A DNA stretch of 64,000 nucleotides from an uncultured Selenomonadaceae bacterium (lineage in GTDB: Bacteria; Bacillota; Negativicutes; Selenomonadales; Selenomonadaceae). Positions 3,572-41,677 of the stretch are shown here, one piece after another. Under the pieces are notes generated by a model. The model was not told the DNA's origin and searched no databases. It saw nothing but the letters and a program-made list of their open reading frames with translations. The position numbers were made by a program, and so were the translations under genes. The stretch's first letter is position 1; each line of letters starts with the position of its first letter. Location of the stretch: assembly GCA_905234195.1 (NCBI GenBank), contig CAJOFR010000006.1, positions 1-64,000 on the forward strand. The letters are read 5' to 3'.

Positions 3572-5092
3572 TTAAGAATCTGCAGGCGGAGAAACTTTTG
3601 TTTTGACGACGAACATAACCAAAATCAAACAGGCGAGAGCGGTTGCGAGACCGAGCCAGCCGTTTTGCGTGAAGCCTGCCGCCAAAAAGCCGACAATGCA
3701 ACAAGCGGAAACGGTTATTACGTAGGGCACTTGAGTTTCGACATGCTCAAGGTGGTTGCACTGCGCGCCGGCAGAGGCGAGAATAGTCGTGTCGGAAATC
3801 GGAGAGGCGTGGTCACCGCCGACGGAGCCGGACAAAATCGCCGCAATGCAAATCACCAAAAGATTGGCGGCGTCGTCAGCGGGGAGGTTTACAAGAATGG
3901 ACATGCAGATAGGAATCAAAATGCCGAACGTCCCCCAGCTCGTGCCCGTAGCAAAAGCCAGCGCGATAGCCACGAGGAAAAATATCACCGGCAAGAAAAC
4001 GGCGATTGATAAATTATTTTGAACAATTTCGCCGACGTAGCCGCCAAGATTTAAATATTTGCCACTGCAGACGCCGGACAAGGTCCATGCCAAACACAAA
4101 ATAAAAATCGCGGGAACCATCGCCTTGAACCCTTGAGCAAAGCAATCGCAAAATTCGCTGAAGGTAATGACTTTTCGCGGCAGGTACAAGACCGAAATAA
4201 AAATCAGCGCGATAAATGCACCGAAGACCAAAGATTGAGCAGCGTCACAATCCGCGAAAGCATCGGCTACAGATTTTCCGTCGTGAATGCCGCCGGTGTA
4301 CAGCATGCCGTAAATGCAAACCGAAATCAAAACGGCAAGCGGCAAAACCAAATCGATAATCTTTCCGTTGCCGCCGAGATTCATTTCGTCTTTGACGGCG
4401 TCCTTGTATTCGTCCGGGATTTTAAATTCTTTTGCGTTATCGCGGACAACTTTTCCCATCGTGGCAAAATCTCTTTCGGTCACGACGATAAACGCCATAA
4501 AAATCATCGTCAAAATCGCGTAAAGGTTAAAAGGAATCGTCTGCAGGAAAAGCGCGAATCCGTCAATCAACGAGCCTTCGGGCAGTGACGAGCCGACCGC
4601 CGCCGCCCAACTCGAAACGGGAGCGATAATACAAATCGGCGCGGCAGTGGAATCGATAACGTAAGCAAGTTTCGCGCGGGCAATTTTAAATTTATCAGTG
4701 ACAGGACGCATGACAGTTCCGACAGTCAGACAATTAAAATAATCGTCGATAAAAATTAGAATGCCGAGCAACGCGGTGACACCGAGCGCGGATTTTTTTC
4801 CGGCAATAGTTCTGCGCGCCCATTCGCCGTAAGCCCGCGTAGCACCCGAACGAGTTATCGCCGCGACGAGTATTCCCAAAATTACGAGGAACGCCAAAAT
4901 ATTTACGTTGTCCCCGATCTTCATTGACATTATCTCAAAAAAAGTCAGAATCGCTTGCAAAAAATTTCCGCCGGTGAAAAGCATCGCGCCCGCGAAAATT
5001 CCGACGATTAGCGACAGATAAACTTCTTTCGTCAGTAGAGCCAACACGATTGTAATAATCGGCGGCAACATTGACAAAGCTGTTGTCTCCAC
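3572..5092 (-). CDS. NhaC-family Na+/H+ antiporter (506 aa)
   Basis: This is a polytopic inner-membrane protein with about 11-12 hydrophobic segments. The conserved core reads IDDYFNCLTVGTVMRP and DSTAAPICIIAPVSSWA, followed late in the chain by SGSVGGDHASPISDTT; these are hallmarks of the NhaC superfamily. Members exchange Na+ with H+ or with an organic acid such as malate/lactate, and the substrate here is not decidable. The start is GTG 5090-5092, with AGGAGG ten bases upstream. The reading frame stays open further, but that extension runs through repeat copy A and is not protein. It has no partner gene besides the YjiH-type membrane protein upstream. Confidence 0.85.
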   Translation of the reverse strand: METTALSMLPPIITIVLALLTKEVYLSLIVGIFAGAMLFTGGNFLQAILTFFEIMSMKIGDNVNILAFLVILGILVAAITRSGATRAYGEWARRTIAGKKSALGVTALLGILIFIDDYFNCLTVGTVMRPVTDKFKIARAKLAYVIDSTAAPICIIAPVSSWAAAVGSSLPEGSLIDGFALFLQTIPFNLYAILTMIFMAFIVVTERDFATMGKVVRDNAKEFKIPDEYKDAVKDEMNLGGNGKIIDLVLPLAVLISVCIYGMLYTGGIHDGKSVADAFADCDAAQSLVFGAFIALIFISVLYLPRKVITFSEFCDCFAQGFKAMVPAIFILCLAWTLSGVCSGKYLNLGGYVGEIVQNNLSIAVFLPVIFFLVAIALAFATGTSWGTFGILIPICMSILVNLPADDAANLLVICIAAILSGSVGGDHASPISDTTILASAGAQCNHLEHVETQVPYVITVSACCIVGFLAAGFTQNGWLGLATALACLILVMFVVKTKVSPPADS

Positions 5093-5133
5093 TAGAAAAC
5101 TTCCTCCTAAAAAAATTTTTAAGTAAGCATATA

Positions 5134-5232
5134 CCGCCGCCCATGGATGGGCGGCCGCCCGCATTTGGTCGCGTGATGCGACCTCTGCGGGCAGTTTTCT
5201 TTTGCTTCTTTTCTTTTGCGCCAAAAGAAAAG
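5134..5232 (+). repeat. Three-hairpin dispersed repeat, copy A
   Basis: Copy A has stem 1 CCGCCC/GGGCGG around ATGGAT (5137-5154). Stem 2 is CCCGCA/TGCGGG enclosing GGTCGC/GCGACC, and stem 3 is CTTTTCTTTTG/CAAAAGAAAAG. It lies between two minus-strand transporter genes and lacks the GGATTAGTATAAAA head that copies B and C carry. Translated on the minus strand it gives a spurious KRKLPAEVASRDQ peptide. Confidence 0.85.
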
Positions 5233-5286
5233 GATATTAAATTTCAAAAGAAAAATAGATGTCAAATTAGAAAACTAAATCCTAAA

Positions 5287-6660
5287 TTAACCGCCAAAAA
5301 TAATTCTGGCGGCAGGAGCGGCAATCAAAATGCTGATAATCGTACGCTCAAGAAACAGGATAAAAAGTTCGGGGAGGTTGACGGGGATTTTTGAACCGAG
5401 AATCAATCCGCCGACTTCCGACAAATAAATTAACTGCGTGACAGAAATTACCGCGACGATAAATTTTGACATGGGCACGGTAATTGTCTTCGCGGCGATT
5501 ATCGACGGCGTAAACATATCCGTGAAACCGACAATCATTGTTTTGGAAACTTCTGCCGCCTGCGGAACGTCAAGCAAATTTAACAGCGGCATGAAGGGCA
5601 TTCCCAGCGTCTCGAAAATTGTCGTGTGATTCGCCAAAACCAAAGCAAGCGTCCCTATGCACATGACGACCGGCAAAACTCCAAACCACATGCCCGCCGC
5701 GTTTTTGAAACTGCTCTCCAAAAATTGTTCGACGCCTCTAAATTCCGCGACGCGCTGTTTTGCAAGCGCAAGCCCGTACTGAAATGACGAGGTGTAGCCT
5801 TCGGGAAGAGTTTCGCCCATAGCTTTTCCTTCGACGAGAAATTCGTCTTTCTTCAGCGAAAGCGGCGGGATTCTCGGCAAAATTAACGCGCAGACAATTC
5901 CTATCGCACAAATCAAAAGATAATACGCGCCGAAATATTCCATTAGACCGACCTGCGCAAGAACAACGATTGAAAAAGTTATCGAGACCGCAGAAAATGT
6001 CGTCGAGATAATCGCCGCCTCACGTTTGGAATAATAGCCGCCTTCGTATTGGTTGGCAGTCAACATAACTCCCAAAGTTCCGTCACCAATCCACGACGTA
6101 ATACAGTCGACAGCCGCGCGCCCGGGGATCGTAAAAAGCGGGCGCATAATTTTCGTCAGCAACGCGCCGATAAATTCCAAAAGCCCGAAGTCCAAAAGCA
6201 ACGGCAATAAAAGTCCCGCGAGAAAAAATATCACGACGAGAACCGTCAGCAAATCATTCAGCACAAAGCCGCCGTTATCAGGCGAAGTTATCATGTGGAT
6301 AATTCCTTCGTCTTCGTCGCCCGCGTCAATTCCCAGATAAGTCAGCCAAAGAAAAATCGCGCCGACAATTCTAATCGCAACCCAAATTGCCGTCGTCGAA
6401 AAAGTGTTCGCAACAATAGGGTACGTCGCAATAAAATTTGGTCGTCCCAAAAAAATCACGCCGAGCACCGCCGACACCGTGACGATTATCAGACAGAGCA
6501 GCGGCAGAAAATCCCCAATGGCGTTGCTGATTAAATCGGCAACAATTTTTACAACAATCGTCCACTTGTCGTCGTACTGAATCGGAATCATGAAAAGTAT
6601 TATCCCGATGACGGAGGGAACCAGAAATCCCGCAAGCGAACCCTCTTTTTTTTGTTCCAT
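5287..6660 (-). CDS. YjiH-family nucleoside-recognition (Gate) membrane protein (457 aa)
   Basis: This is a hydrophobic protein with about ten membrane segments. It shows Gate-domain features: the segment FTIPGRAAVDCITSWIGDGT and a second copy around GFTDMFTPSIIA. This arrangement matches the YjiH family, related to nucleoside transporters and to spore-maturation SpmA/SpmB proteins, with no firmly proven substrate. The ATG at 6658-6660 has an AAGGAG 15 bases upstream, longer than usual, so initiation may be weak. It shares strand with the NhaC-type gene but the 194-base gap holds repeat copy A, so joint transcription is uncertain. Confidence 0.8.
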   Translation of the reverse strand: MEQKKEGSLAGFLVPSVIGIILFMIPIQYDDKWTIVVKIVADLISNAIGDFLPLLCLIIVTVSAVLGVIFLGRPNFIATYPIVANTFSTTAIWVAIRIVGAIFLWLTYLGIDAGDEDEGIIHMITSPDNGGFVLNDLLTVLVVIFFLAGLLLPLLLDFGLLEFIGALLTKIMRPLFTIPGRAAVDCITSWIGDGTLGVMLTANQYEGGYYSKREAAIISTTFSAVSITFSIVVLAQVGLMEYFGAYYLLICAIGIVCALILPRIPPLSLKKDEFLVEGKAMGETLPEGYTSSFQYGLALAKQRVAEFRGVEQFLESSFKNAAGMWFGVLPVVMCIGTLALVLANHTTIFETLGMPFMPLLNLLDVPQAAEVSKTMIVGFTDMFTPSIIAAKTITVPMSKFIVAVISVTQLIYLSEVGGLILGSKIPVNLPELFILFLERTIISILIAAPAARIIFGG

Positions 6661-6757
6661 AATTTTTTTCTCGTGCTCCTTTCAGCAAAAAATAAAATCC
6701 CCATAATTATATCAGCTACGTTTAAAAATGTGAAATAAAAATTTTTCCGCAACAAGA

Positions 6758-6886
6758 GGATTAGTATAAAAGAGGGAGTGGCCGCACAAGGACGTGCGGC
6801 CGCCCGCATTTGGTCGCGTGACGCGACCTCTGCGGGCAGTTTTCTTTTGCTACTTTTCTTTTGCGATCAAAAGAAAAGTAGAATGC
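6758..6886 (+). repeat. Three-hairpin dispersed repeat, copy B
   Basis: This is a full-length copy with head GGATTAGTATAAAA. Stem 1 is CCGCAC/GTGCGG around AAGGAC, stem 2 is GGTCGCG/CGCGACC inside CCCGCA/TGCGGG, and stem 3 is a perfect 14-bp CTACTTTTCTTTTG stem with a CGAT loop. It is nearly identical to copy C. It sits in the 404-base divergent gap between the YjiH-type gene and ilvH; the rest of that gap holds heptamer repeats and the ilvH promoter. Confidence 0.88.
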
Positions 6887-6905
6887 TCATTCAAAAGGGT
6901 TAAGG

Positions 6906-6924
6906 AACTAGGGGTTAGGGATTA
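6906..6924 (+). repeat. Heptamer array (TTAGGGA type)
   Basis: CTAGGGG, TTAGGGA and TTAG follow one another with a 7-base period, 20 bases after repeat copy B. A degenerate inverted counterpart (CTTATCTCTTGCCCC) follows at about 6932-6946, so the region could fold back on itself. Confidence 0.6.
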
Positions 6925-7003
6925 GAAAAAAACTTATCTCTTGCCCCTTAAGATGCTAAATTACAAAAAGAAGTTTAAATTAGAAATCAAAGAAAAATTT
7001 TTC

Positions 7004-7032
7004 TTGAAAGTTATACAAAAAAGTGCTATTAT
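7004..7032 (+). promoter_or_regulatory. Promoter of ilvH-ilvC
   Basis: TTGAAA (7004-7009) and TATTAT (7027-7032) are spaced by 17 bases, 32 bases before the ilvH start. The leader is too short for a T-box or leader-peptide attenuator, so control by amino-acid attenuation is unlikely at this promoter. Confidence 0.75.
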
Positions 7033-7064
7033 GCATGGCGGAAATTTTTTAAGGAGTTTTTAAG

Positions 7065-7595
7065 ATGAAGCACGTTTTATCCGTTTACGTCGAAAATCAG
7101 CCGGGCGTCCTCGTTCGCGTGGCGAGTATGTTCAGCCGCAGAGAATTTAATATCGACAGCCTTTCAGTCGGTATTACTCAATCGCCGGATTTTTCACGGA
7201 TAACCGTCGTCGTTCATGGCGACGCGAATTTAATCGAACAAATGATCAAGCAACTGGAAAAGATGCCTATCGTTAAAGCAGTCCAACGCCTCGATTCAGC
7301 AACCGCCGTCACGCGCGGGATGACTATGATAAAAGTTTCGGCGGACGACACAAATCGACTTGACGTTTTAAAAATGGCAGAACTTTTCCGCGCGCACGTC
7401 GTCGATGTTCAGCCGACGAACCTAATCTTTGAAATTACCGGAGACGACGAAAAAGTTACAGCGTTTACTCGTCTTTTGGCTCCTTATGGAATTTTGGAAA
7501 TCATCCGCACAGGTTTAATTGCACTTGAGCGCGGTGAAAACACTATCGAAAATTATCATCAAGTGAGGGAGTATTATGGCAAAAACTTATTATGA
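7065..7595 (+). CDS. ilvH: Acetolactate synthase small (regulatory) subunit (176 aa)
   Basis: An N-terminal ACT domain (about residues 3-75, starting [22 protein letters not shown] with NIDSLSVG) is followed by the C-terminal ALS small-subunit domain. This subunit binds valine and activates the catalytic IlvB subunit, which makes acetolactate for branched-chain amino acids. AAGGAG precedes the ATG. It overlaps ilvC by 20 bases, so the two are coupled. Oddly, the catalytic ilvB gene, usually immediately upstream, is not in the window; it must lie elsewhere on the chromosome. Confidence 0.95.
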
Positions 7596-8592
7596 CCAGG
7601 ACGTTAATTGGGAAATCATGAACGGCAAAACCGTCGCGATTATCGGCTACGGCAGTCAAGGTCACGCGCACGCGCTGAATCTCAAGGAAAGCGGCGTTAA
7701 TGTCGTCGTCGGTCTTTACGAGGGCTCGAAGTCCAAAGCAGTCGCCGAAAGTCAAGGCTTAAAAGTTTTGAACGTCGCCGACGCCGTCAAAGCAGCCGAT
7801 ATTACAATGGTTTTGATACCCGACGAAAAGCAAGCCGACGTCTACAAAAACGAGATCGCCCCGAATCTGAAGGACGGCTCCGCGCTTGCCTTTGCTCACG
7901 GCTTTAATATTCACTTCAAACAAATTATCCCGCCCGCAAACGTCGACGTATTCATGGTCGCCCCGAAAGGCCCCGGTCATCTCGTCCGCAGAACTTTTGT
8001 TGAAGGCGGCGGCGTCCCCGATGTTTTCGCGGTGGAGCAGGACGCAACCGGAAAATGTTTCGACATTGCACTTGCCTACGCGCGCGGTATCGGCGGAACT
8101 CGCGCAGGTGTTTTGCAGACAACCTTCAAGGAAGAAACTGAAACAGATCTTTTCGGCGAACAGTGCGTACTCTGCGGCGGCGTCACTCATTTGATTCAGG
8201 AAGGTTTTGAAACTTTGGTCGCGGCAGGTTATCAGCCGGAGATCGCCTACTTTGAAACTTTCCACGAAATGAAACTTATCGTCGATTTAATGTACGAAGG
8301 CGGCATGGCGAAAATGCGCAAGTCTATCAGCGATACCGCTGAATATGGCGACTACACGACCGGACCGAAAATTATCACGCCCGAAGTCCGCAAGGCAATG
8401 GAAAAAGCCCTCAAGGAAATTCAGGACGGATCTTTTGCGCGTAATTGGCTCGTCGAAAATCGCGCGGCAGGTCGTGCAAACTTCTTGGCACAGCGTCGCA
8501 TTCACGCCGAACACCAAATCGAACAGGTCGGCGCAAAACTTCGCGGCATGATGAGTTGGCTCAAAGACGGCAGCGATCTTTCCAAAGACTAA
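7576..8592 (+). CDS. ilvC: Ketol-acid reductoisomerase (338 aa)
   Basis: This is a short class I IlvC. It has the nucleotide-binding GYGSQGH motif (residues 24-30), a specificity loop around LYEGSKSK that suggests NADPH, a His in FAHGFNIHF (His108), PKGPGH, and the metal-ligand region ETDLFGEQ. It converts acetolactate to dihydroxyisovalerate in valine/leucine synthesis and acts on acetohydroxybutyrate for isoleucine. GAGGGAG lies just before the ATG, inside the ilvH end. A terminator follows, so the transcription unit is ilvH-ilvC only. Confidence 0.97.
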
Positions 8593-8617
8593 AATTTTTT
8601 TACGATAACAAAAAATG

Positions 8618-8650
8618 GCGGCTTGCTGAAAATTTCAGCAGACCGCTTTT
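8618..8650 (+). terminator. Terminator of ilvH-ilvC
   Basis: GCGG, then GCTGAAA/TTTCAGC, then CCGC form a nested stem followed by TTTTAATTTT. The downstream larE Shine-Dalgarno starts only seven bases later, so larE must be read either through this hairpin or from a start within it. Confidence 0.75.
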
Positions 8651-8668
8651 AATTTTGGAGGAATTGTT

Positions 8669-9457
8669 TTGCACGAGAAATACGAACGCTTGAAAAAAAA
8701 TCTGCGCGAACTCGGAAGTGTCGTCGTTGCATTTTCCGGCGGCGTCGACTCAACTTTTTTGCTGAAGGTCGCGCAGGAAGTTCTCGGCGAAAAAATTTTG
8801 GCGGTAACTGCAACGTCAGAATTTTTTCCTCAACGTGAAACTTCGGAGGCGAAAAATTTTTGTCGGCAGGAAAATATCCGGCAGATTTTTTTCCCCGCTA
8901 ACCAACTCGACGACGCGGAAATTTGCCGCAACCCGAAAAATCGTTGCTACCTCTGCAAAAAAAAATTGTTCACGAAAATTTTGGAGCTTGCCGCCGAAAA
9001 TAATTTTGCGCACGTCGTCGAAGGTTCCAACATGGACGATTGCGGAGATTATCGACCGGGCATGCAGGCCGTCACCGAGCTGAAAATAAAAAGTCCCCTT
9101 CGCGAAGTCGGCTTGTGGAAAAATGAAATTCGCGCGCTGTCGAAGGAAATGCATTTGCCGACGTTCGATAAGCCTTCGTTTGCTTGCCTTGCGTCCAGAT
9201 TTGTTTACGGCGAAATTATTTCCGCAGAAAGGTTGACGATGGTGGACGCGGCGGAAAATTTTTTGCTCGAACGAAATTTTAAACAGGTTCGCGTGCGCAT
9301 TCATGACAAGCTTGCCCGAATTGAAGTTTTGCCCGCCGATTTTGAACGCCTTCTAAAAATTCACGACGACGTTACGAAAAATTTTCACGCGCTCGGATTT
9401 TCTTACGTCGCTTTAGATTTGGACGGCTACAGTACAGGCAGCATGAATAGGGGCTAG
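8669..9457 (+). CDS. larE: LarE-type ATP-dependent sulfur transferase (262 aa)
   Basis: The PP-loop ATPase signature SGGVDS is at residues 23-28, and the LarE-type FACLASRF segment carries Cys173, the position of the sacrificial cysteine in LarE. A CYLC pair is at residues 93-96. LarE builds the nickel-pincer cofactor of lactate racemase and related enzymes by donating sulfur to a pyridinium precursor; LarB and LarC are needed too but are not in this window. The start is TTG 8669-8671 behind GGAGG. Its stop codon TAG (9455-9457) lies at the edge of a heptamer repeat array, so its last residues (NRG) may be repeat-derived. A neighbouring larA is absent, so the enzyme it serves is unknown. Confidence 0.85.
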   Translation: MHEKYERLKKNLRELGSVVVAFSGGVDSTFLLKVAQEVLGEKILAVTATSEFFPQRETSEAKNFCRQENIRQIFFPANQLDDAEICRNPKNRCYLCKKKLFTKILELAAENNFAHVVEGSNMDDCGDYRPGMQAVTELKIKSPLREVGLWKNEIRALSKEMHLPTFDKPSFACLASRFVYGEIISAERLTMVDAAENFLLERNFKQVRVRIHDKLARIEVLPADFERLLKIHDDVTKNFHALGFSYVALDLDGYSTGSMNRG

Positions 9458-9492
9458 TTTTTAGGGATTAGGGGTTAGAGGTTAGGGATTAG
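9447..9492 (+). repeat. Heptamer array overlapping the larE stop
   Basis: TTAGGGA, TTAGGGG, TTAGAGG, TTAGGGA and TTAG follow one another with a 7-base period, preceded by AATAGGGGCTAG that contains the larE stop. The right end merges with the GGATTAGTATAAAA head of repeat copy C. Confidence 0.8.
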
Positions 9493-9614
9493 TATAAAAA
9501 GGGGAGTGGCCGCACAAGGACGTGCGGCCGCCCGCATTTGGTCGCGTGACGCGACCTCTGCGGGCAGTTTTCTTTTGCTACTTTTCTTTTGCGGTCAAAA
9601 GAAAAGTAGATGCT
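9486..9614 (+). repeat. Three-hairpin dispersed repeat, copy C
   Basis: It is nearly identical to copy B: head GGATTAGTATAAAA, stem 1 CCGCAC/GTGCGG, the nested stem 2, the 14-bp stem 3 with loop CGGT, and tail GTAGATGCT. It lies between larE and ppaC, both on plus, so it is in the path of any larE transcript. Confidence 0.88.
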
Positions 9615-9646
9615 TATTCAAAAGAGGAAAAAATTTTTTAGAGAAA

Positions 9647-9675
9647 TAGACAGCGAAAAATTTTTTAGATATAAT
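9647..9675 (+). promoter_or_regulatory. Promoter of ppaC
   Basis: TAGACA (five of six to consensus) and a perfect TATAAT are separated by 17 bases, placed 32 bases before the ppaC start codon. Confidence 0.75.
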
Positions 9676-9707
9676 TGCGCCATAAATTTTTTTGGGAGGA
9701 TTTTTTG

Positions 9708-11363
9708 ATGAAAAGCAAAGGCACGAAACCTATTTACGTCATCGGGCACAGAAACCCCGACACCGATTCTATTTGCTCGGCAATAAGTTACGCTCACCTC
9801 AAACAGGCAATGGGCATTAACGCCGTCGCCGCCCGTTGCGGAAAAATTAACAACGAAACAAAATACGCGCTCGAATATTTCAAAATCGAACAGCCGCATC
9901 TTTTGACTGACCTTTATCCGCGCGTCAAAGATGTTACCCTCGAAGTCAAAACCGTCGTCCGTCAGCACGATACCCTGCGCCATCTCGGCGAAGTCATGCG
10001 CAAAAGTGAACTCCGCTCCGTCCCCGTCACCGACAGCAAAGGCGAACTCGTCGGTATCGTTACCGTCAGCGATTTGGCGAAACGTTACTTCCTCGAACTC
10101 GGCTTGCAAAGTCTGGTCGATATGCGCGTTCGTTACCGCGATATCATTCAAGCCACAGAGTCGAAAGTTTTGGTTGCCGGCGACGAAAATGAATTTATCG
10201 AAGGCGGCGTTAAAATCGCGGCGGGCAGTGTCGAAACGACGCTCATGACCCTTCAGCCGAAAGATATTGTCCTCGTCGGTGACCGCAGTGTGACCACGCT
10301 CAGAAAAATTTTGCATTCCGGCGTTTCGTGCATGATTGTTACCGGCGGTTGCAGAGTCGCGGCAGAAGCCCTTGCCGAAGCCGCCAACTTGAAAATTTTC
10401 GTGCTCGCTACACCCTACGACACTTACACCGTCGGCAGACTTTTAAATCAGTGCGTGCCCATTCGTCGAATCATGCACTCCGATCCAATTTGTTTCCGCC
10501 CGATGGATCTGCTCAGCGACATTAAAGGAATTATGGACGAACACCGGTTCCGCAGTTATCCCGTCGTAGAAAATAATAAACTCGTCGGAATTGTCAGCTC
10601 GGACAAAATTATGTTGCCCGACCGCGAAAAAGTTATTCTCGTCGACCATAACGAACGCGGGCAAGCTGTCGAAGGCATAGAGGATGCAAAAATCGTCGAG
10701 ATTATCGACCACCACAGACTCGGCGGCGTCCAAACTTCAGAGCCGATTTATATTCGTCAAGAGCCCGTCGGCTGTACCTGCACAATCGTCGCGAACATGC
10801 ATTGGGATAACGACATAGAAATTCCCCCGTCGATTGCCGGACTTCTCCTTTCGGCAATTATTTCCGATACTGTTTTGTTTAAATCGCCGACTTGCACGAA
10901 CAAAGACAGGAAGACTGCCGAACGTCTTGCTGAAATTGCCGGCGTCGACTTGAAAGAATACGGGCTTGCGATGCTCCGCGCGGGCGCAGGTATCGGCGGC
11001 AAAACTCCTACCGAGATTGCCAAAAACGACTTGAAAGAATTTAAAATCGGTGACTACAGAATTATCGTCAGCCAAATTTCCGTCATGGATCCTAACGAAG
11101 TTCTCAACATTGAAGAAAAATTAATCGAAGTCATGAAGGAAAATTGCGAGCGCGAAGGTTTCGATATGCATTTGCTTATGGTCACGGATATTTTGGAAGA
11201 ATCGACTTATCTGCTCTATTCCGGTTCGCCGAAAACTTTAATCGGCGAGGCGTTCAAGAAAGATGCCAGCGGCACGCACGTTTATTTGCCGGGCGTCATG
11301 AGCCGCAAGAAACAAATTATTCCGCCGCTGTCTGAAGCCGTCAAACGCATTAAGCCGCAATGA
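9708..11363 (+). CDS. ppaC: CBS/DRTGG-regulated manganese pyrophosphatase (551 aa)
   Basis: The order is DHH domain (GHRNPDTDS near the N-terminus), CBS motif (about residues 75-130), DRTGG domain, second CBS motif, remaining DHH motifs (DHNERGQ and IDHHRLGG), then DHHA2. This is the family II pyrophosphatase with a regulatory insert: it hydrolyses PPi using Mn2+/Co2+. In the family, CBS domains bind AMP/ADP (inhibition) and diadenosine polyphosphates (activation). The start is ATG 9708 behind GGGAGGA; a longer frame upstream lacks a Shine-Dalgarno sequence and would run into the promoter. It is transcribed alone. The enzyme class is quite sure; the ligands of the CBS pair are known only for the family. 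Confidence 0.93.
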   Translation: MKSKGTKPIYVIGHRNPDTDSICSAISYAHLKQAMGINAVAARCGKINNETKYALEYFKIEQPHLLTDLYPRVKDVTLEVKTVVRQHDTLRHLGEVMRKSELRSVPVTDSKGELVGIVTVSDLAKRYFLELGLQSLVDMRVRYRDIIQATESKVLVAGDENEFIEGGVKIAAGSVETTLMTLQPKDIVLVGDRSVTTLRKILHSGVSCMIVTGGCRVAAEALAEAANLKIFVLATPYDTYTVGRLLNQCVPIRRIMHSDPICFRPMDLLSDIKGIMDEHRFRSYPVVENNKLVGIVSSDKIMLPDREKVILVDHNERGQAVEGIEDAKIVEIIDHHRLGGVQTSEPIYIRQEPVGCTCTIVANMHWDNDIEIPPSIAGLLLSAIISDTVLFKSPTCTNKDRKTAERLAEIAGVDLKEYGLAMLRAGAGIGGKTPTEIAKNDLKEFKIGDYRIIVSQISVMDPNEVLNIEEKLIEVMKENCEREGFDMHLLMVTDILEESTYLLYSGSPKTLIGEAFKKDASGTHVYLPGVMSRKKQIIPPLSEAVKRIKPQ

Positions 11364-11367
11364 CCGG

Positions 11368-11393
11368 TTTAGGGATTAGTGGCAAGGGATTAA
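11368..11393 (+). repeat. Degenerate heptamer array after ppaC
   Basis: TTTAGGGATTAG and CAAGGGATTAAG form a loose 7-base array just past the ppaC stop and lead into repeat copy D. Here the stop codon (TGA) precedes the repeat and is not part of it. Confidence 0.55.
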
Positions 11394-11408
11394 GTTTAAG
11401 AGAAGAGA

Positions 11409-11530
11409 GAGGCCGCTCAAGGATGAGCGGCCGCCCGCATTTGGTCGCGTGATGCGACCTCTGCGGGCAGTTTTCTTTTGCTTCTTTTCTTTTGCGCCAA
11501 AAGAAAATTTTCAAAAGAAAAGTAGATGCT
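11409..11530 (+). repeat. Three-hairpin dispersed repeat, copy D
   Basis: Stem 1 is CCGCTC/GAGCGG around AAGGAT, a third version of the same covarying stem. Stem 2 is GGTCGC/GCGACC inside CCCGCA/TGCGGG. Stem 3 is altered: its right arm is partly duplicated (CAAAAGAAAATTTT, then CAAAAGAAAAGTAGATGCT). It lies between the convergent ppaC and rubrerythrin genes. Confidence 0.85.
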
Positions 11531-11572
11531 AAATAAAAAAAAATATTCCCTAAATCTTAGGGAAAAAACAAA

Positions 11573-11603
11573 AAGACCGCCCGCAATCGGACGGCTTTTT
11601 TTG
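11573..11603 (-). terminator. Terminator of the rubrerythrin gene
   Basis: On the minus strand GCCGTCCG and CGGGCGGT form a stem around ATTG, followed by TTTTTGTTTTTT. A-runs and T-runs flank both sides, so it can also serve plus-strand transcripts. Confidence 0.7.
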
Positions 11604-11624
11604 AGGAAAGAAGAATAACTTAAT

Positions 11625-12170
11625 TTATTTTGCAAAATAACGATCGAGCAAACCTTTGAATCCCTTTCCGTGACGCGCTTCATCTTTCGCCATCTCGTGA
11701 ACGGTATCATGAATCGCATCGAGATTGAGTTCTTTCGCAAGTTTCGCCAAATCTTTTTTGCCCTGACAAGCACCATGTTCAGCGGCAACACGCACCGCAA
11801 GATTTTCTTTCGTCGACGCGGAAACAACTTCGCCCAAAAGTTCCGCAAACTTCGCGGCGTGTTCTGCCTCTTCCAGCGCGTAACGACGGAACGCCTCGCC
11901 AATTTCGGGATAGCCTTCGCGGTGAGCTGCTCTACTCATCGCAAGATACATTCCCACTTCGCAACATTCGCCGTTGAAATTTTGGCGGAGACCTTCGATA
12001 ATGCGCGGGTCAACACCTTTCGCGACGCCAATAACATGTTCGTCAGCGAAAACCAATTCGCCCTCCTGCTTGATAAATTTTTCGGCAGGAGCTTTGCAAA
12101 GCGGGCACTCTGTCGGCGGCGCATCTCCCTCGTAAACGTATCCGCAAACACTGCAAACATATTTCGCCAT
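11625..12170 (-). CDS. Reverse rubrerythrin, peroxide-reducing (181 aa)
   Basis: The rubredoxin domain comes first (residues 1-40, [10 protein letters not shown] and CPLCKAP), before the ferritin-like diiron domain, which carries ExxH metal-ligand patterns (EEAEHAAKF and KDEARH). That inverted order defines reverse rubrerythrin, an NADH-linked peroxidase that protects anaerobes against H2O2 and O2. The iron-binding Cys pairs and the carboxylate ligands are present. AGGAGG precedes the ATG. It is a single-gene unit with promoter and terminator visible. Its expression is probably peroxide-inducible, but no operator could be recognised. Confidence 0.93.
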
Positions 12171-12212
12171 AACAGAAATACCTCCTAAAAAATTTTTTCA
12201 CACCTCGCTGAT

Positions 12213-12241
12213 ATTTTAACACAGAAAAAATTTTTTGTGAA
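12213..12241 (-). promoter_or_regulatory. Promoter of the rubrerythrin gene
   Basis: On minus, TTCACA and TAAAAT are separated by 17 bases, with TGT just before the -10 (extended -10). The spacer is an A6T6 tract, which is intrinsically curved and may add strength. Confidence 0.6.
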
Positions 12242-12306
12242 GAGACTTTCGCCGCAAAATTTTCTTCCTCCAAAAAAATAAAATACTTTCGTTAATCAAA
12301 TGTCCG

Positions 12307-12315
12307 TGTTATAAT
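12307..12315 (+). promoter_or_regulatory. Extended -10 promoter of the hexokinase gene
   Basis: TGTTATAAT is a perfect extended -10 element, 49 bases before the hexokinase start. The -35 position (TTTCGT) is poor, so the TG motif probably carries recognition. Confidence 0.6.
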
Positions 12316-12364
12316 TTGTCAAGACAATTTTTTTGAAAGTTTCGATTTTAAAGGGGGATTTTTT

Positions 12365-13666
12365 ATGGCATTTGAAGAGGGAAAATTTCAGGAAGTACTT
12401 TCAGAATTTAGCGCAACGAGCGAAATGCTCCGCGAAGTCGCCGCTAATTTCCGTCAAGATCTGCAAATGGGTCTGCGCGACCCTGCCAGCTCCTCTATGC
12501 GTATGCTGAAATCTTATGTCGGTCTTCCCAGCGGCAAGGAGAAGGGAGAATTTTTGGCGTTGGACTTCGGCGGCACCAATGTCCGCGTGCTCCGTATTCG
12601 TCTCGAAGGTGAAGGGCGTTACGAAGTTTTGAAGCGCGTCGGTGAACCGCTTATCATTCCCGGAAAATACGATTATATCGGCAAGGGCTCAACCGCCGTG
12701 CAAATGTTTGACTTCCTCGCGAAACTTATTGACGAGGCGATTGACGGCGACCACGACACGAAATTTTATCTCGGTCATACTTTTTCTTTCCCGTCCGACC
12801 AAGACGACCTCAACAACGCGCGGCTGATTATCTGGACGAAAGAATTTGCTACCGAAGGCGTAGAAGGAAAAGTCGTTAATGATTTGCTCACCGCTGCTCT
12901 GGAACGGCGCGGAATTAAAAATGTTGTGCCGGTTGCCGTCATTAATGACACGGTTGCGGTTTTGCTCTCGGCGGCGTACAAAAATCCCGATATTTATATC
13001 GGCTCGATTTACGCCACCGGTCACAACACCTGCTATCTTGAATCAAGTATTCACGACCCGAAAGGCTTTGGCGTGGGCGGCATGATTTTAAATCTGGAGT
13101 GCGGCGGATTTATGAAACTCACTCCCAACCGTTTTGACGTGGAGCTTGACAAAAATTCCGAAAAGCCCGGCGAACAGCGTCTCGAAAAAATGGTTTCCGG
13201 TCGTTATATGGGCGAACTTCTTTCGATGGCCATTGCCGAACTCCTCGACGAAAAAGATAAAAAATATGATTTGACTTCTGTCGATATGTCGATGATTATC
13301 ACTGACGACACGCCGGAACTTAAAAAGGCTACGGAGATTCTTGCCGAAAAAGTCGGGCGCAAACTCGAACTCAAAGACGTGAAGAGAATTAAGGAATTGA
13401 CGACGGCTATTGCGGTGCGTTCCGCGCGTTTGGTTGCCTCGTCTTACGTCGGAATAATTTGGCAGCGCGCCGGCGAAGGAAAAATTCAGCCGCAACACGT
13501 TGCAGTTGACGGCTCTGTTTACGAAAAAATGCCGCTTGTCAAAGAAAATATCGCGCGTGCTCTAAGTGAACTGCTCGGCGAAGATGCGGCGGGCGTCGAT
13601 ACGGTTTTGGACAACGGCGGCTCCGGATTGGGCGCGGCTATCGCGGCGGCTATGGCTGTTCAATAA
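12365..13666 (+). CDS. Eukaryotic-type hexokinase (433 aa)
   Basis: The sequence has the actin-fold phosphate loop LDFGGTNVRV (residues 66-75), the sugar-binding FSFPSDQ (140-146), LIIWTKEF (154-161) and INDTVAVL (193-200), where Asp195 is the catalytic base, and a late NGGSGLGAA segment. These match the eukaryotic hexokinase family rather than the bacterial ROK or GlcK glucokinases. It would phosphorylate glucose or related hexoses with ATP at the entry of glycolysis. It is about 30 residues shorter than yeast enzymes. It has its own promoter and terminator. A hexokinase of this family is uncommon in bacteria, though seen sporadically in gut anaerobes; lateral transfer is possible but its base composition matches its neighbours. 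Confidence 0.88.
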   Translation: MAFEEGKFQEVLSEFSATSEMLREVAANFRQDLQMGLRDPASSSMRMLKSYVGLPSGKEKGEFLALDFGGTNVRVLRIRLEGEGRYEVLKRVGEPLIIPGKYDYIGKGSTAVQMFDFLAKLIDEAIDGDHDTKFYLGHTFSFPSDQDDLNNARLIIWTKEFATEGVEGKVVNDLLTAALERRGIKNVVPVAVINDTVAVLLSAAYKNPDIYIGSIYATGHNTCYLESSIHDPKGFGVGGMILNLECGGFMKLTPNRFDVELDKNSEKPGEQRLEKMVSGRYMGELLSMAIAELLDEKDKKYDLTSVDMSMIITDDTPELKKATEILAEKVGRKLELKDVKRIKELTTAIAVRSARLVASSYVGIIWQRAGEGKIQPQHVAVDGSVYEKMPLVKENIARALSELLGEDAAGVDTVLDNGGSGLGAAIAAAMAVQ

Positions 13667-13706
13667 TTTTTGCGGCAGAATAAAAAATTTCTGCTTGAAT
13701 GAAAAA

Positions 13707-13750
13707 GCATTGAGGGTTGATTTTTTTTCGACACTCAATGCTGATTTTTT
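13707..13750 (+). terminator. Terminator of the hexokinase gene
   Basis: GCATTGAG pairs with CTCAATGC (13707-13741) around a T-rich loop, followed by TGATTTTTT. It ends just before the chemoreceptor gene. Confidence 0.75.
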
Positions 13751-13774
13751 CTTGCGGTGTTGGAGGATGGGGAG

Positions 13775-15460
13775 ATGGGTCTAAAAAGCAAGGCGGTTAT
13801 CGTCCTAAACGTGGCTGTCATTATCACCTGCATAATTATGAGCGTGCTCGGTTACATGAGCGCGAGCAACGGTTTTTCTAAAGCGTTGGAGATGAAAGCC
13901 GAAGCCGACGTAAAATCTTTGACGGAAATTTTAAATTATCGTTTCGAGGGCGATTGGAATTTGCGGGGCGGCGTCCTCTACAAGGGCGATAAAAATATGG
14001 AGGACGCTGACGACGTCGTGGATTATCTTAGCGAAATTTGCAGCGGCAAGGTCACGATTTTCAGGGGCGATACTCGCGTTACCACGACCGTTAAAGACGC
14101 AAGCGGCAAGCGTTCAGTTGGCACGAAAGCCTCTGAAGAAGTTATCAGCCGCGTTTTGAACGGCGGGAAAAATTTTCTCGGCGTCGCAAATGTCATGGGC
14201 GAAAAACATCACGCCGCCTATCGCCCGATTAAAGATTCTTCCGGAAAAATAATCGGCATGCTCTTCGTCGGGTTGAGTGTTCACGAAATGGACGACGTTA
14301 CCCAAAAATTTATTTTCTCGATTATAATCACGGCGGCAATCATTGTCGTGCTGTGTGTCCTCGTGTCGAATTTTATTATCGGCAAGGCGGTTGGCATGCT
14401 TGACGAAGTTGTTTACGCGATGCAAAAAATTTCTGTCGGGAATTTGCGCATGGACGATTTGCCGATACGCACGAAGGACGAAATTGGAACCTTAGCGGAA
14501 GGCGTCAACGCTATGCGTAAAGAATTGACTGACCTTTTGAAAAATATCGTGCACAGCTCGGAACAAGTTGCGGCGTCCTCCGAAGAACTCACCGCCAGCG
14601 CGCAGGAAGGCGCAAGTTCCATTCATCTTATGGCGAAAGATACGGCGGCGATGAGTGAGGACGTGAATGACCAAACCGCCGTCGTTAATGAGCTGAAAGA
14701 AACGATTAGAAAAATGCGCGACAACATGAACGAATTGCACGCAAGCGCGCAGATTATGGACGAGGCGTCGAAGAGCAGCACGAAGAGTGCCGCCGAAGGA
14801 AAAGAAAAAGTTGACTACGCGATAGAGATGATGAAAAAAATTTCCAGGCAAGTAAATTCTTCGGCGGAAGTCGTGGGGAATCTCGGCAAGCGTTCGGACG
14901 AAATCGGGCAGATTGTCAATACCATTTCCGAAATTGCTGAGCAGACAAATTTGCTCGCGCTGAATGCGGCGATTGAGGCGGCGCGTGCGGGAGAACACGG
15001 GCGGGGTTTTGCCGTCGTCGCTGAAGAAGTCCGCAAACTTGCCGAACAGTCCGCGCAAGCCGCCGCAAATATTTCACAGCTGATAACTTCGATTCAAAAG
15101 GACACTGAATCCGCTGTCAGTTCGATTGAGGACGGGAATCACGGCGTAAAAGAGGGCACCGATTCTGTTTTGTCCACCGGCGAGGCTTTTCATAGTATCG
15201 AAGAGCAAATCGAGAAACTTAATTCAAATGTCCGGCGCAGTATGAGCCACATTGACGCGGTTAATAAAAACAGCGAAGAAATTTTGCAGGAAATTGAGCA
15301 TGTTTACGAGATAACAAAAAAATCCGGCGAAGTTGCCGGCGAAATTAAATCAGCCGCCGAAGTTCAAAGCACTTCCATTCATGAAATTGCCGAGTCCAGC
15401 AAAAGTCTTGCGGAACTTGCCGAAGATATGCGCTCCGAAGTCGCGAAGTTTAGTATTTAG
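13775..15460 (+). CDS. Methyl-accepting chemotaxis protein with Cache sensor (561 aa)
   Basis: The order is TM1 (about 8-28), an extracytoplasmic single-Cache-type sensor (about 35-175, ending [18 protein letters not shown]), TM2 (about 180-202), HAMP (203-255), and a coiled-coil signalling domain with the hairpin tip [20 protein letters not shown]. It senses an external ligand, probably a small carboxylate or amino acid, and signals through CheA/CheW to CheY. I start at ATG 13775, because GGAGG is eight bases upstream; an in-frame GTG at 13757 lies ahead of the Shine-Dalgarno. The ligand is unknown, and the gene stands alone between the hexokinase gene and recG. Confidence 0.92.
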
Positions 15461-15510
15461 AGTTTAGCATCTTCTTTTCTTTCTAAAAAATTTTTTTTCT
15501 TTTTAAACCT

Positions 15511-15643
15511 AGCATCTACTTTTCTTTTGGAGCAAAAGAAAAGTAGCAAAAGAAAACTGCCCGCAGAGGTCGCATCACGCGACCAAATGCGGGCGGCCGC
15601 CCATCCTTGGGCGGCCACTCCACTTTTTATACTAGTCCCTAGT
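15511..15643 (-). repeat. Three-hairpin dispersed repeat, copy E, overlapping the recG stop
   Basis: This copy is on the minus strand: head ACTAGGGACTAGTATAAAA, stem 1 CCGCCC/GGGCGG around AAGGAT, nested stem 2, a 14-bp stem 3 with loop CTC, tail AGTAGATGCT. It lies between the convergent chemoreceptor and recG genes. The heptamer-like head supplies the last codons and the TAG stop of recG (15632-15634). Confidence 0.87.
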
Positions 15644-17725
15644 TATTTGGGAGAATTTGTCTCCGTAAGCAAGAGCAAGATTTTTTCTAAGCTCGACAAA
15701 ATAATTTAAGTCCGCCTCTTCCGTGACAAATTTTTCTGCCGCGTCACGAGCCGCAATCAAAGTTTCGACGTCGCGAAAAACATCCGCGACTTTTAAATCG
15801 GGCAATCCGTGTTGAGCCTCCCCAAAAAATTGTCCGGGCCCGCGCATTTTTAAATCTTCTTCAGCAAGTTTAAAACCGTCGTTCGTCGACTGCAACAGCT
15901 CCATTCTCTCCTGCGAATGGTCAGTTTTGTTGTTGCTCAACAAAATGCAGTAAGATTTTTCGGAGCCGCGCCCGACCCTCCCGCGCAGTTGGTGAAGTTG
16001 CGCCAGCCCAAACCTGTCAGCATTTTCGACAACCATAACCGTCGCGTTCGGAACGTCGACGCCAACTTCAATAACCGTCGTCGAAACAAGCAGACGAGTT
16101 TCTCCCGCGCGAAAACGTTCCATAATTTCATCCTTGTCCTTCGGTTTCATCTTGCCGTGTAAAATATCGCAGGGCACGTCGCGAAAAATTCCTTCGCTCA
16201 ACATTTCGTAAACTTCAACGACGGGATCAATGTGTTTCAAAGTTTCCGAATCACTCCTGGAAATCAGCGGGCAGACGACGTAAGCTTGACGCCCTTTCAA
16301 AATTTCTTCGCGGACAAATTCATAAACTCTCTTGCGGCTGCGAATACTCTTGAACGTCGTTTCAATCGGCTTTCTTCCCGGCGGCATCTCCTTTATCAGC
16401 GAAACATCAAGGTCGCCGTAAACCGTCAAACTCATCGTGCGCGGAATCGGTGTCGCCGTCATTACGAGCATGTCGGGAATTAACACCGAACGCTTTTCGA
16501 GTACCGAACGTTGCACGACGCCGAAGCGGTGTTGCTCGTCAGTGACGACGAGTCCGAGTTTTGCGAAGCGGACACCTTCCTGAATTAACGAGTGCGTGCC
16601 AACCACTATATCCAGTTCGTGTTCGGAAATTTGTTTATAAATTTCGTCGCGCATTTTTTTTGTGCGCGTGACTTTCGCGCTCAAAAGTCCCACGCGTATT
16701 CCGAACGGAGATAAAAATTTTGAAAATTTTTCGTAGTGCTGGTTCGCCAAAATTTCTGTAGGAGCCATCATCGCGCCTTGATAGCCGCCCTGCACAGCCT
16801 TGACGAGTGCCAACAACGCAACAGCAGTTTTTCCGGAGCCGACGTCCCCTTGAATCAGCCGGCGCATCGGCAATTTATCTTCCATGTCCCGCGAAACTTC
16901 CGCGAAAATATTTTTCTGGTCGTTCGTCAATTCAAAGGGCAGGCTGTCAAAAATTTTATTGACAAGCTCACCATTTTTTTCGTGCTGAATTCCGAGCCGG
17001 TTATATTTTGTTTGACGCTTGATTAACATTAATCCGCACTGAATCAAAAAAAGTTCGTCGAAGGCAAGCCGCCTGCGCGCCGCGTCCAAATAACGCTGAT
17101 CCTTCGGAAAATGAATCGAGTGCATCGCCAAATCCAGCGGCATTAATTTTAGTTGCTTGAGTATCACCTGCGGCAAAATTTCCGGCAAAGGCGGCATCTT
17201 ATCCAAAAGATTTTTCATTGCCGTGCGGAAAAAAGATTGTGGCAAACTTGAAGTCGAAGGGTAAACCGGCATTATTCCCAGCGACGGTTGTTCATGCGCG
17301 CCCAAAATCGTGGAGTTTATGACTTGTCCGACGACGAGTTCATTTCTCCAATCGTCCCATTTAATTTTGCCGATAATCATCATTCGCGTGCCGTATTCCA
17401 ATTTTCTCATCAGATAATCTTGATTGAACCACATGACTGTTATTCTGCCGGTGTCGTCGTCGAGCGTGCCTTCGATAATCGACAAATTATGACGAATGAC
17501 GCGTTGTTCGAGGTGATACATTCTTCCGACAAGCACGACAGTTTCTCCGGCGTCGACGTCAGCAATTTTAGAAACGGTGCTGTAATTTTCGTAGGCGCGC
17601 GGATAATGCGTCAAGAAATCGTACATTGTGAAGATGTCCAATTTTTTCAGCATGTCAGCCTTGCGCGGACCCACGCCCTTCAAATACATTATGTTATCCG
17701 TAAATTCAAACCTGGTGCTACTCAT
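15632..17725 (-). CDS. recG: ATP-dependent DNA helicase RecG (697 aa)
   Basis: The wedge/OB domain (residues about 50-150) is followed by helicase domains with Walker A GDVGSGKT, DEQHRFGV (motif II as DEQH), motif III TATPIPRT and the late QLRGRVGRG motif, and a C-terminal TRG region. RecG remodels stalled replication forks and Holliday junctions. A GTG at 17732-17734 overlaps the lysA stop and could be the start; I prefer the ATG at 17723-17725. The 3' end is unusual: the last residues (ITRD) and the TAG stop are encoded by the heptamer head of repeat copy E, so the gene's original end was replaced or extended when the repeat arrived. Confidence 0.93.
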   Translation of the reverse strand: MSSTRFEFTDNIMYLKGVGPRKADMLKKLDIFTMYDFLTHYPRAYENYSTVSKIADVDAGETVVLVGRMYHLEQRVIRHNLSIIEGTLDDDTGRITVMWFNQDYLMRKLEYGTRMMIIGKIKWDDWRNELVVGQVINSTILGAHEQPSLGIMPVYPSTSSLPQSFFRTAMKNLLDKMPPLPEILPQVILKQLKLMPLDLAMHSIHFPKDQRYLDAARRRLAFDELFLIQCGLMLIKRQTKYNRLGIQHEKNGELVNKIFDSLPFELTNDQKNIFAEVSRDMEDKLPMRRLIQGDVGSGKTAVALLALVKAVQGGYQGAMMAPTEILANQHYEKFSKFLSPFGIRVGLLSAKVTRTKKMRDEIYKQISEHELDIVVGTHSLIQEGVRFAKLGLVVTDEQHRFGVVQRSVLEKRSVLIPDMLVMTATPIPRTMSLTVYGDLDVSLIKEMPPGRKPIETTFKSIRSRKRVYEFVREEILKGRQAYVVCPLISRSDSETLKHIDPVVEVYEMLSEGIFRDVPCDILHGKMKPKDKDEIMERFRAGETRLLVSTTVIEVGVDVPNATVMVVENADRFGLAQLHQLRGRVGRGSEKSYCILLSNNKTDHSQERMELLQSTNDGFKLAEEDLKMRGPGQFFGEAQHGLPDLKVADVFRDVETLIAARDAAEKFVTEEADLNYFVELRKNLALAYGDKFSQITRD

Positions 17726-41588: not shown

Positions 41589-41677
41589 GTGACCGGTTGT
41601 TAGTTGTTAGAGATTAGTTGCTGGAGATTAGCGGCCGGAAAAACTAATCCCTATTCCCTAAAAACTAGTCACTAGAA
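41589..41677. repeat. Long heptamer array with inverted arm, overlapping the lipoprotein stop
   Basis: Left arm: TTAG units (GTTGTTAGTTGTTAGAG, then GATTAG and GGAGATTAG). Centre: GCGGCCGG. Right arm, inverted: CTAATCCC, TATTCCC, TAAAAACTAGTCACTAG. The arms can form a long imperfect hairpin in the gap between guaB and the lipoprotein gene. The TAG stop of the lipoprotein gene (41672-41674) is in the right arm. Confidence 0.78.

Follow-up and report, generated by a model that had tools for sequence, protein, structure and literature searches.

Introduction

Among the dispersed hairpins described in bacteria, repetitive extragenic palindromes (REPs) lie mostly between unidirectional and convergent genes, often less than 20 bp from 3' ends, and include CGTC families without a dedicated transposase (PMC3733652). 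The excerpts of that paper, the form in which all papers are cited here, name no Firmicutes for either the GTAG or the CGTC tag, and those of PMC12306157 tabulate REP predictions for some Bacillota and report that Escherichia coli REPs located 15 nt or less from a stop codon slow ribosomes or exonucleases. Hairpins of another kind are recognised by CsrA/RsmE proteins, for which apical hexaloops containing CANGGANG are high-affinity targets, and the leader of Campylobacter flaA has ANGGA motifs in its loops (PMC4894983); a flagellin leader titrating CsrA is a published precedent. Here, a dispersed three-hairpin element of about 110 bp is analysed, five copies of which occur in a stretch of 64,000 nucleotides (positions 1 to 64,000 of contig CAJOFR010000006.1, hereafter the window) from an uncultured Selenomonadaceae bacterium.

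The best explanation, and one that we consider reasonably probable, is that the element is a non-autonomous dispersed repeat of the Selenomonadaceae, REP-like at 3' ends, with an orientation-dependent terminator and a putative CsrA hairpin. The safest reading is that of a REP-like family of 3'-end hairpins with orientation-dependent terminator behaviour. The new point about this repeat is the loop of its first stem, which is constant on varying arms. Among the matches listed in open-licence PMC papers, neither this repeat nor any CsrA-binding dispersed repeat was described, and in a text search of the Quinella genome paper the words 'palindrom' and 'CsrA' were absent.

The repeat family and its copies in the window

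The window belongs to a contig of a 2.09 Mb draft genome that is 88% complete (the source genome). Its genus is called Quinella-like here after the protein relatives of one window gene, which came from metagenome-assembled genomes of Selenomonadaceae and Selenomonadales, mostly ruminant, and included two named Quinella sp. An original prediction, made by inspection of the window, had proposed five intergenic copies with the order stem 1, nested stem 2 and A/T-rich stem 3, four on the plus strand and one on the minus strand. All five were recovered in that order and on those strands, with core coordinates taken from a covariance model (R1) that was built from 46 copies from several genomes (alignment A1). 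The strand of the original prediction, on which stem 1 is followed by stem 2, the T-tract and stem 3, is referred to as the GGA strand.

Copy A, 5128..5237, plus strand: R1 core, between two minus-strand genes and antisense to both; the stop codon of 5287-6660 is on its stem-3 side.
Copy B, 6773..6883, plus strand: R1 core, lying between two divergent genes and flanked by the promoter-like sites of both, at 6734-6706 (minus) and 7004-7032 (plus).
Copy B stem 1, 6780..6801, plus strand: arms GGCCGCAC/GTGCGGCC, hexaloop AAGGAC at 6788-6793 with C-G closing pair, a CsrA-type loop (from the fold and loop conservation).
Copy B stem 2, 6802..6837, plus strand: nested hairpin with apical GTGAC (from the fold and covariation).
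Copy B T-tract TTTTCTTTTG, 6840..6849, plus strand: 3' of stem 2, terminator-like on this strand; duplicates the 5' arm of stem 3.
Copy B stem 3, 6850..6881, plus strand: arms CTACTTTTCTTTTG/CAAAAGAAAAGTAG (from the fold).
Copy C, 9501..9611, plus strand: larE (8669-9457, plus strand) lies upstream, the copy being sense to it.
Copy C, downstream side: promoter-like site at 9647-9675, plus strand, belonging to a gene for a Mn-dependent inorganic diphosphatase.
Copy D, 11404..11513, plus strand: between the convergent diphosphatase (plus) and rubrerythrin-like (minus) genes.
Copy E, 15514..15623, minus strand: between a convergent chemotaxis-receptor-like gene (plus) and recG (minus), 9 nt past the recG stop codon and sense to recG.

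The five copies were outside the genes called by our own script, and stem 1 took the three forms originally reported, CCGCAC/GTGCGG in copies B and C, CCGCTC/GAGCGG in copy D and CCGCCC/GGGCGG in copies A and E. No full copy was found past 16 kb within the window, the next one listed on the contig being at 66771, beyond its end. When folded as RNA, the GGA strands of the five copies gave z-scores from -4.8 to -7.5, and none of 200 shuffles was equally stable. The element had no match in Rfam, and no Csr/Rsm RNA was matched in the window.

A covariance-model search of the genome and its relatives, as the original prediction had proposed, found many further copies. A DNA search of the source genome gave 67 matches, part of them short stem-3 matches; R1 matched 58 of 58 scored candidates, so that this genome holds at least 58 copies. 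The element was present in 59 of the 66 genomes of the genus (E <= 0.001) and, at E <= 1e-4, in 85 of 189 genomes of the family, representing 7 of 30 genera. When 150 class genomes were drawn evenly, nine had matches, and all nine belong to the Selenomonadaceae. In viral contigs there were no exact matches (0) of the type-I core pattern, and the phage records contained no match to one copy from genome G197.

Covariation of the stems

In alignment A1, 95.3% of the cells pair and 16 of the 27 pairs show two-sided change. The covariation score was 0.299 against a shuffled mean of 0.083, a value reached in 0 of 500 shuffles, and structures slid along the alignment scored 0.071 or less. Most of this signal came from helices 1 (stem 1) and 3 (inner stem 2), stem 3 being nearly invariant; among source-genome copies stem 2 was near-identical. 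The stem-1 pairs comprised 549 Watson-Crick pairs and 9 mismatches (including 1 TG and 1 CA), and those of inner stem 2 comprised 289 Watson-Crick pairs and 8 mismatches (including 4 CA and 0 GT). The covariation claimed from five copies was thus correct, and the absence of further copies or of compensation, which had been named as evidence to the contrary, was not what the 58 of 58 matches and the compensated stem changes displayed. The conclusion drawn from it, that the folded form is selected, calls for care, the stems being almost strictly Watson-Crick without an excess of G-U on the GGA strand. The pairing data favour RNA on the GGA strand neither over single-stranded DNA nor over RNA of the other strand. 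Assigning the active strand by G-U asymmetry was attempted and dropped because wobbles were too few.

A constant loop on stem 1

Stem-1 hairpins were detected without use of the motif, and 74 of 83 distinct hairpins had the loop A(N)GGAN closed by C-G, which is the apical CANGGANG on a stem that characterises a CsrA/RsmE site. The nine exceptions consisted of four damaged or contig-edge hairpins, two cases in which another hairpin was picked despite presence of the motif, and three weak reverse-strand matches. Fourteen rows had been removed beforehand, three lacking the T-tract pattern and 11 lacking a stem-1 hairpin (eight own copies with a damaged or short stem, one diverged copy from genus g18 and two weak reverse matches). 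The C-A(N)GGAN-G loop sat on 19 different 6-nt arms across three genera, its N positions being free. When C-A-(N)NN-A-N-G was imposed in a second count, the positions left free read GG in 77 of 77 hairpins. Other hexaloop hairpins in source-genome loci had a CsrA-type loop in 0 of 26 cases, a sample too small for a background rate. Two relatives (L078, L079) carry a copy at a shared position past the diphosphatase gene, with wholly different stem-1 and stem-2 arms and identical loops, ACGGAC on stem 1 and GTGAT on stem 2. Within the source genome the motif was on a stem of at least 5 pairs in 42 of 55 copies, and in G197 stem 2 also contained CANGGA, in the 8 of 16 rows where it was detected.

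CsrA (PF02599) was encoded in 59 of the 66 genus genomes and in 14 of 14 high-quality ones, that of the source genome starting with MLVLTRK and including IYRGEIYRAI. FliW was found in 10 of 10 tested genomes and is directly upstream of csrA in the source genome. Fourteen flagellin-family leaders from eight genomes were folded. A hairpin with an ANGGAN hexaloop was present in the printed fold of 5 of the 14, in four of which the hexaloop was drawn as a tetraloop closed by A-U, and the Shine-Dalgarno sequence CAAGGAGG preceded the start codon in 9 of the 14.

Leaders L184 and L192, source genome: AAGGAT, closed by G-C.
Leader L193, genome G006: AAGGAA, closed by G-C.
Leaders L186 and L188, genus g18: AGGGAT, closed by C-G.
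Leaders L185 and L187: GGGA in pentaloops.
Leader L189: GGGA in an octaloop.
Leader L190: CAAGGATA between complementary arms, not formed in the printed fold.
Leaders L191 and L194-L197: nothing similar.

The likeness of these leaders to the loop of the repeat is genuine and looser at the closing pair (C-G in two, G-C in three). Judged by sequence, binding of CsrA to stem 1 is plausible.

Placement at gene 3' ends and terminator-like behaviour

Placement was counted with genes called by our own script in loci that had been fetched because they contained copies, background gaps being drawn from the same neighbourhoods; four weak matches in the source genome and four in relatives were left out, and the source genome, Quinella-like relatives, genus g18 and a further set, g28, formed four groups. 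The 54 source-genome copies were distributed over convergent gaps (23 copies, with 1.3 expected from intergenic bp in the same loci, p=3e-23), tandem gaps (23) and divergent gaps (8, with 15.2 expected, p=0.03). The corresponding convergent, tandem and divergent counts were 15, 16 and 6 for the 37 copies of Quinella-like relatives, 0, 11 and 0 in g18, and 5, 10 and 0 in g28. Placement is therefore of the REP type (extragenic, near 3' ends and rarely divergent), the divergent share being 8/54, 6/37, 0/11 and 0/15, respectively. Tandem copies of all four groups were antisense in 44 cases and sense in 16 (p=4e-4), and such a shortage of sense copies within tandem pairs is consistent with a terminator in the sense direction. 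A stop codon was located within 20 nt on the stem-3 side of 2/54 own, 20/37 relative, 11/11 g18 and 2/15 g28 copies, and on the stem-1 side of 16/54, 13/37, 0/11 and 1/15. With eight more distinct copies, g18 was tandem-antisense in 19 of 19, and 15 of these had a stop codon no more than 20 nt away on the stem-3 side.

The presence of the element at similar sites varies between relatives. At the 3' site of recG a copy was present in 2 of 30 fetched loci (source genome and G021), many others having a plain terminator and L148 being cut about 50 nt past recG. Around the diphosphatase gene, a copy above 25 bits was present in 4 of 30 fetched relative loci, several of which were short.

Stem 2 followed by the AGTTTTCTTTTG T-tract is a conserved arrangement that looks like an intrinsic terminator, a function for which the support is statistical. 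Another detectable terminator was found at 2 of 29 source-genome gene ends with a sense copy within 60 nt, compared with 44 of 162 controls (p=0.018). In a generic terminator scan of 4800-16000, 27 sites were returned, compared with 21.3 for shuffled sequence; they included stem 1 of copy D on the reverse strand and stem 3 of copies A and C, and stem 2 of none of the five copies. The role at messenger RNA (mRNA) ends that had been suggested for the repeat is supported by its position near 3' ends and by the comparison of gene ends with controls.

REP tags and mobility

The original prediction had likened the repeat to REPs, or to the bacterial interspersed mosaic elements that contain them, and to miniature inverted-repeat transposable elements. 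REP-like behaviour was borne out, the element being high-copy, extragenic, palindromic and located by 3' ends; membership was not, given the lack of a conserved GTAG or CGTC foot and of a link to a REP-associated tyrosine transposase (RAYT). Within 6 nt of the stem-1 feet, GTAG was found in 9 of 101 and CGTC in 6 of 101 own-genus rows, and neither tag in the 24 rows of g18 or the 16 of g28. Near the stem-1 foot of one g18 row stands GACG, complementary to CGTC, and a GTAG at the stem-3 foot is paired and, by eye, altered in other genera. The comparison with miniature inverted-repeat elements failed at the ends, which are not inverted repeats (first 20 bases against the reverse complement of the last 20: mean identity 0.28, best 0.45). 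No relative was similar enough to offer a clean empty site, and neither defined ends nor target-site duplications could be demonstrated.

The RAYT-like gene that had been suggested as a possible mobiliser was sought with PF01797 (Y1_Tnp), the one transposase family searched, mostly in incomplete drafts. Matches occurred in 7 of 66 genus genomes, among them G065 and G073, with partial ones in G000 and G002; no link to the element was found, matches being absent from five copy-rich drafts (G010, G011, G015, G021, G023) and from three g18 carriers (G154, G137, G162). A Y1/RAYT transposase as mobiliser was thus not supported, and the search within this family yielded no mobilising enzyme. The match of the source genome is a truncated tnpA adjoining a frame that resembles tnpB.

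On contig C37 of G000 (loci L009 and L018), a Y1 transposase frame truncated at its 5' end precedes a 372-aa frame resembling tnpB, and the pair adjoins a cut-off frame that we read as an amidohydrolase.

TAG-heptad arrays near the copies

An array of the form (TAGNNNN)n, with seven TAGs at a spacing of 7, was noted on the plus strand at 9448..9496, flanking copy C, and more arrays were present in the window at 6909-6926, 32792, 37885 and 41601-41674. In relatives they were seen past recG (L170) and past the diphosphatase gene (L074, L075, L082), and several Quinella-like intergenic arrays have a CTA arm with which a hairpin can form. Source-genome loci contained 114 TAG pairs at spacing 7, compared with 2-10 at spacings other than multiples of 7, and no such peak was present in g18 or g28. 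TAG heptads occurred in a flank of 30 of the 58 source-genome element matches. As the heptad length is coprime to 3, these arrays put stop codons in all frames; the TAACTGA repeats of giant Beggiatoaceae may be compared (PMC4679880).

Discussion

The best explanation may be set out as follows. Located between genes and often beside stop codons, the element would place a hairpin structure at the 3' end of transcripts. In the sense direction, stem 2 and TTTTCTTTTG would act as an intrinsic terminator for the upstream gene, and because of this sense copies would be tolerated past the last gene of an operon or between convergent genes and avoided within tandem pairs, where the reverse orientation prevails. 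Stem 1 would expose C-A(N)GGAN-G, a CsrA/RsmE recognition loop, so that any transcript entering a sense copy would be given, at its 3' end, a hairpin on which CsrA could dock.

Several observations weigh against this explanation. Gene ends with antisense copies showed a similar, non-significant deficit of other terminators (3/20, p=0.29), and the detector used was crude and conservative, missing an imperfect hairpin, GACCGCCCGCAATCGGACGGCTTTTTTT, past copy D. Seven of 117 copies overlapped a called gene, by 3-95 bp, the rest being extragenic. For the three copies that were folded on both strands (B, C and E), the opposite strand gave z-scores of -9.4 to -10.2, stronger than the GGA strand in 3/3, and G-U wobbles are not in excess on the latter, the stems being near-strictly Watson-Crick. 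In the source genome, 6 of 55 copies have the stem-1 motif on a shorter stem and 7 of 55 (one cut by a contig end) have no motif, whereas 48 of 55 conform to a strict pattern for stem 2 with its T-tract. Most stem-2 loops of Quinella-like genomes are GTGA rather than GGA, and in g18 the loop is conserved although all 19 copies have their GGA strand antisense to the genes on either side.

Three other explanations were considered. It is possible, though on balance doubtful, that the copies serve jointly as a dispersed sponge for CsrA, in which stem 1, joined by stem 2 in some lineages, is kept since the transcripts bind and titrate CsrA as an RNA antagonist beside FliW. The constant C-ANGGAN-G loop with free N positions on 19 arms in three genera, similar to the CANGGANG hexaloop of PMC4894983, speaks for such a sponge, as do the CANGGA of stem 2 in G197, a host encoding both csrA and fliW, the flagellin leaders with ANGGAN loops (5/14) and CAAGGAGG (9/14), and the published leader that titrates CsrA. 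It sits poorly, however, with the uniformly antisense copies of g18, with the GTGA of most stem-2 loops, and with stem 1 being the part most often broken in the source genome; neither G-U counts nor the folding asymmetry favour the GGA strand, and by eye no conserved promoter was seen upstream of copies, which also lends no support to the autonomous small RNA once suggested. Another explanation is an active role on the other strand: mRNA of tandem genes would have stem 3', stem 2' and stem 1' right past the stop codon, slowing ribosomes or exonucleases as E. coli REPs do (PMC12306157). The few wobbles (5 CA against 1 TG) and the fold z-scores of 3/3 copies favour this strand, and 15/19 copies of g18 and 20/37 of those in Quinella-like relatives have a stop codon no more than 20 nt away on their stem-3 side. 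The latter holds for only 2/54 own and 2/15 g28 copies, and we regard this role as rather unlikely. We know of no ligand for the reverse-strand version of the conserved stem-1 loop.

Similarly improbable in our judgement is a selfish mobile hairpin, in which some enzyme would recognise folded single-stranded DNA and so conserve loops and stems, placement reflecting tolerated insertion sites only. Such an element would suit stems that are strictly Watson-Crick and show no G-U asymmetry, a stem 2 that is near-identical among source-genome copies, as if it had spread recently, and patchy presence at the recG and diphosphatase loci; the absence of PF01797, the one transposase family searched, from the eight carriers listed above, mostly incomplete drafts, argues against it, though other genomes have matches. 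For the stem-1 loop itself, CsrA recognition would account better than any alternative known to us, the orientation in g18 and the broken stem 1 of part of the source-genome copies being left unexplained by it. The boldest reading, tentative and in our view rather unlikely, is that the family turned CsrA recognition into a dispersed element: each genome would have tens of copies at 3' ends, many of them bearing a CANGGANG hairpin, which would jointly form a distributed sponge for CsrA, a protein whose known type of antagonist in these bacteria is FliW.

If CsrA binds stem 1, the copy number of the repeat would set the free level of a global regulator and link repeat spread to regulation. Should CsrA play no part, the repeat is still a REP-like family that falls outside the tagged REP classes and shows clear covariation and placement; its host belongs to an uncultured genus of the rumen that has been noted as more abundant in some low-methane sheep (PMC9585023).

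Comparison with known systems

AT-rich hairpins with a duplicated 5' arm like that of stem 3, TTTTCTTTGGTTACTTTCTTTG...CAAAGAAAGTAAC, occur in replicons of Ilyobacter (L142), Caballeronia (L143 and L145) and Variovorax (L144), that is in Fusobacteriota and Proteobacteria, in some at several places per record; stem 3 alone matches, however, the flanks differing and stems 1 and 2 being absent. Candidate matches were also returned from Pseudoalteromonas. The RUP, Correia/NEMIS, CIR and RPE elements are likewise dispersed, structured and about 100-170 bp long (PMC2229807), whereas the present element lacks terminal inverted repeats and has three separate hairpins. With the CsrA/RsmE-binding hairpins of CsrB/RsmZ RNAs and flagellin leaders it shares a CANGGANG hexaloop on a short stem, but it is a dispersed repeat, neither an RNA gene nor a leader, with one such loop in most copies and no Rfam match. 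REP elements resemble it as high-copy extragenic hairpins of convergent and unidirectional gaps near 3' ends (PMC3733652, PMC12306157). Compared with their 20-40 bp, the element is about 110 bp long with three hairpins; it has neither a conserved GTAG/CGTC foot nor a RAYT link that could be found, and it is set apart from them by a fixed CsrA-type loop on freely varying arms.

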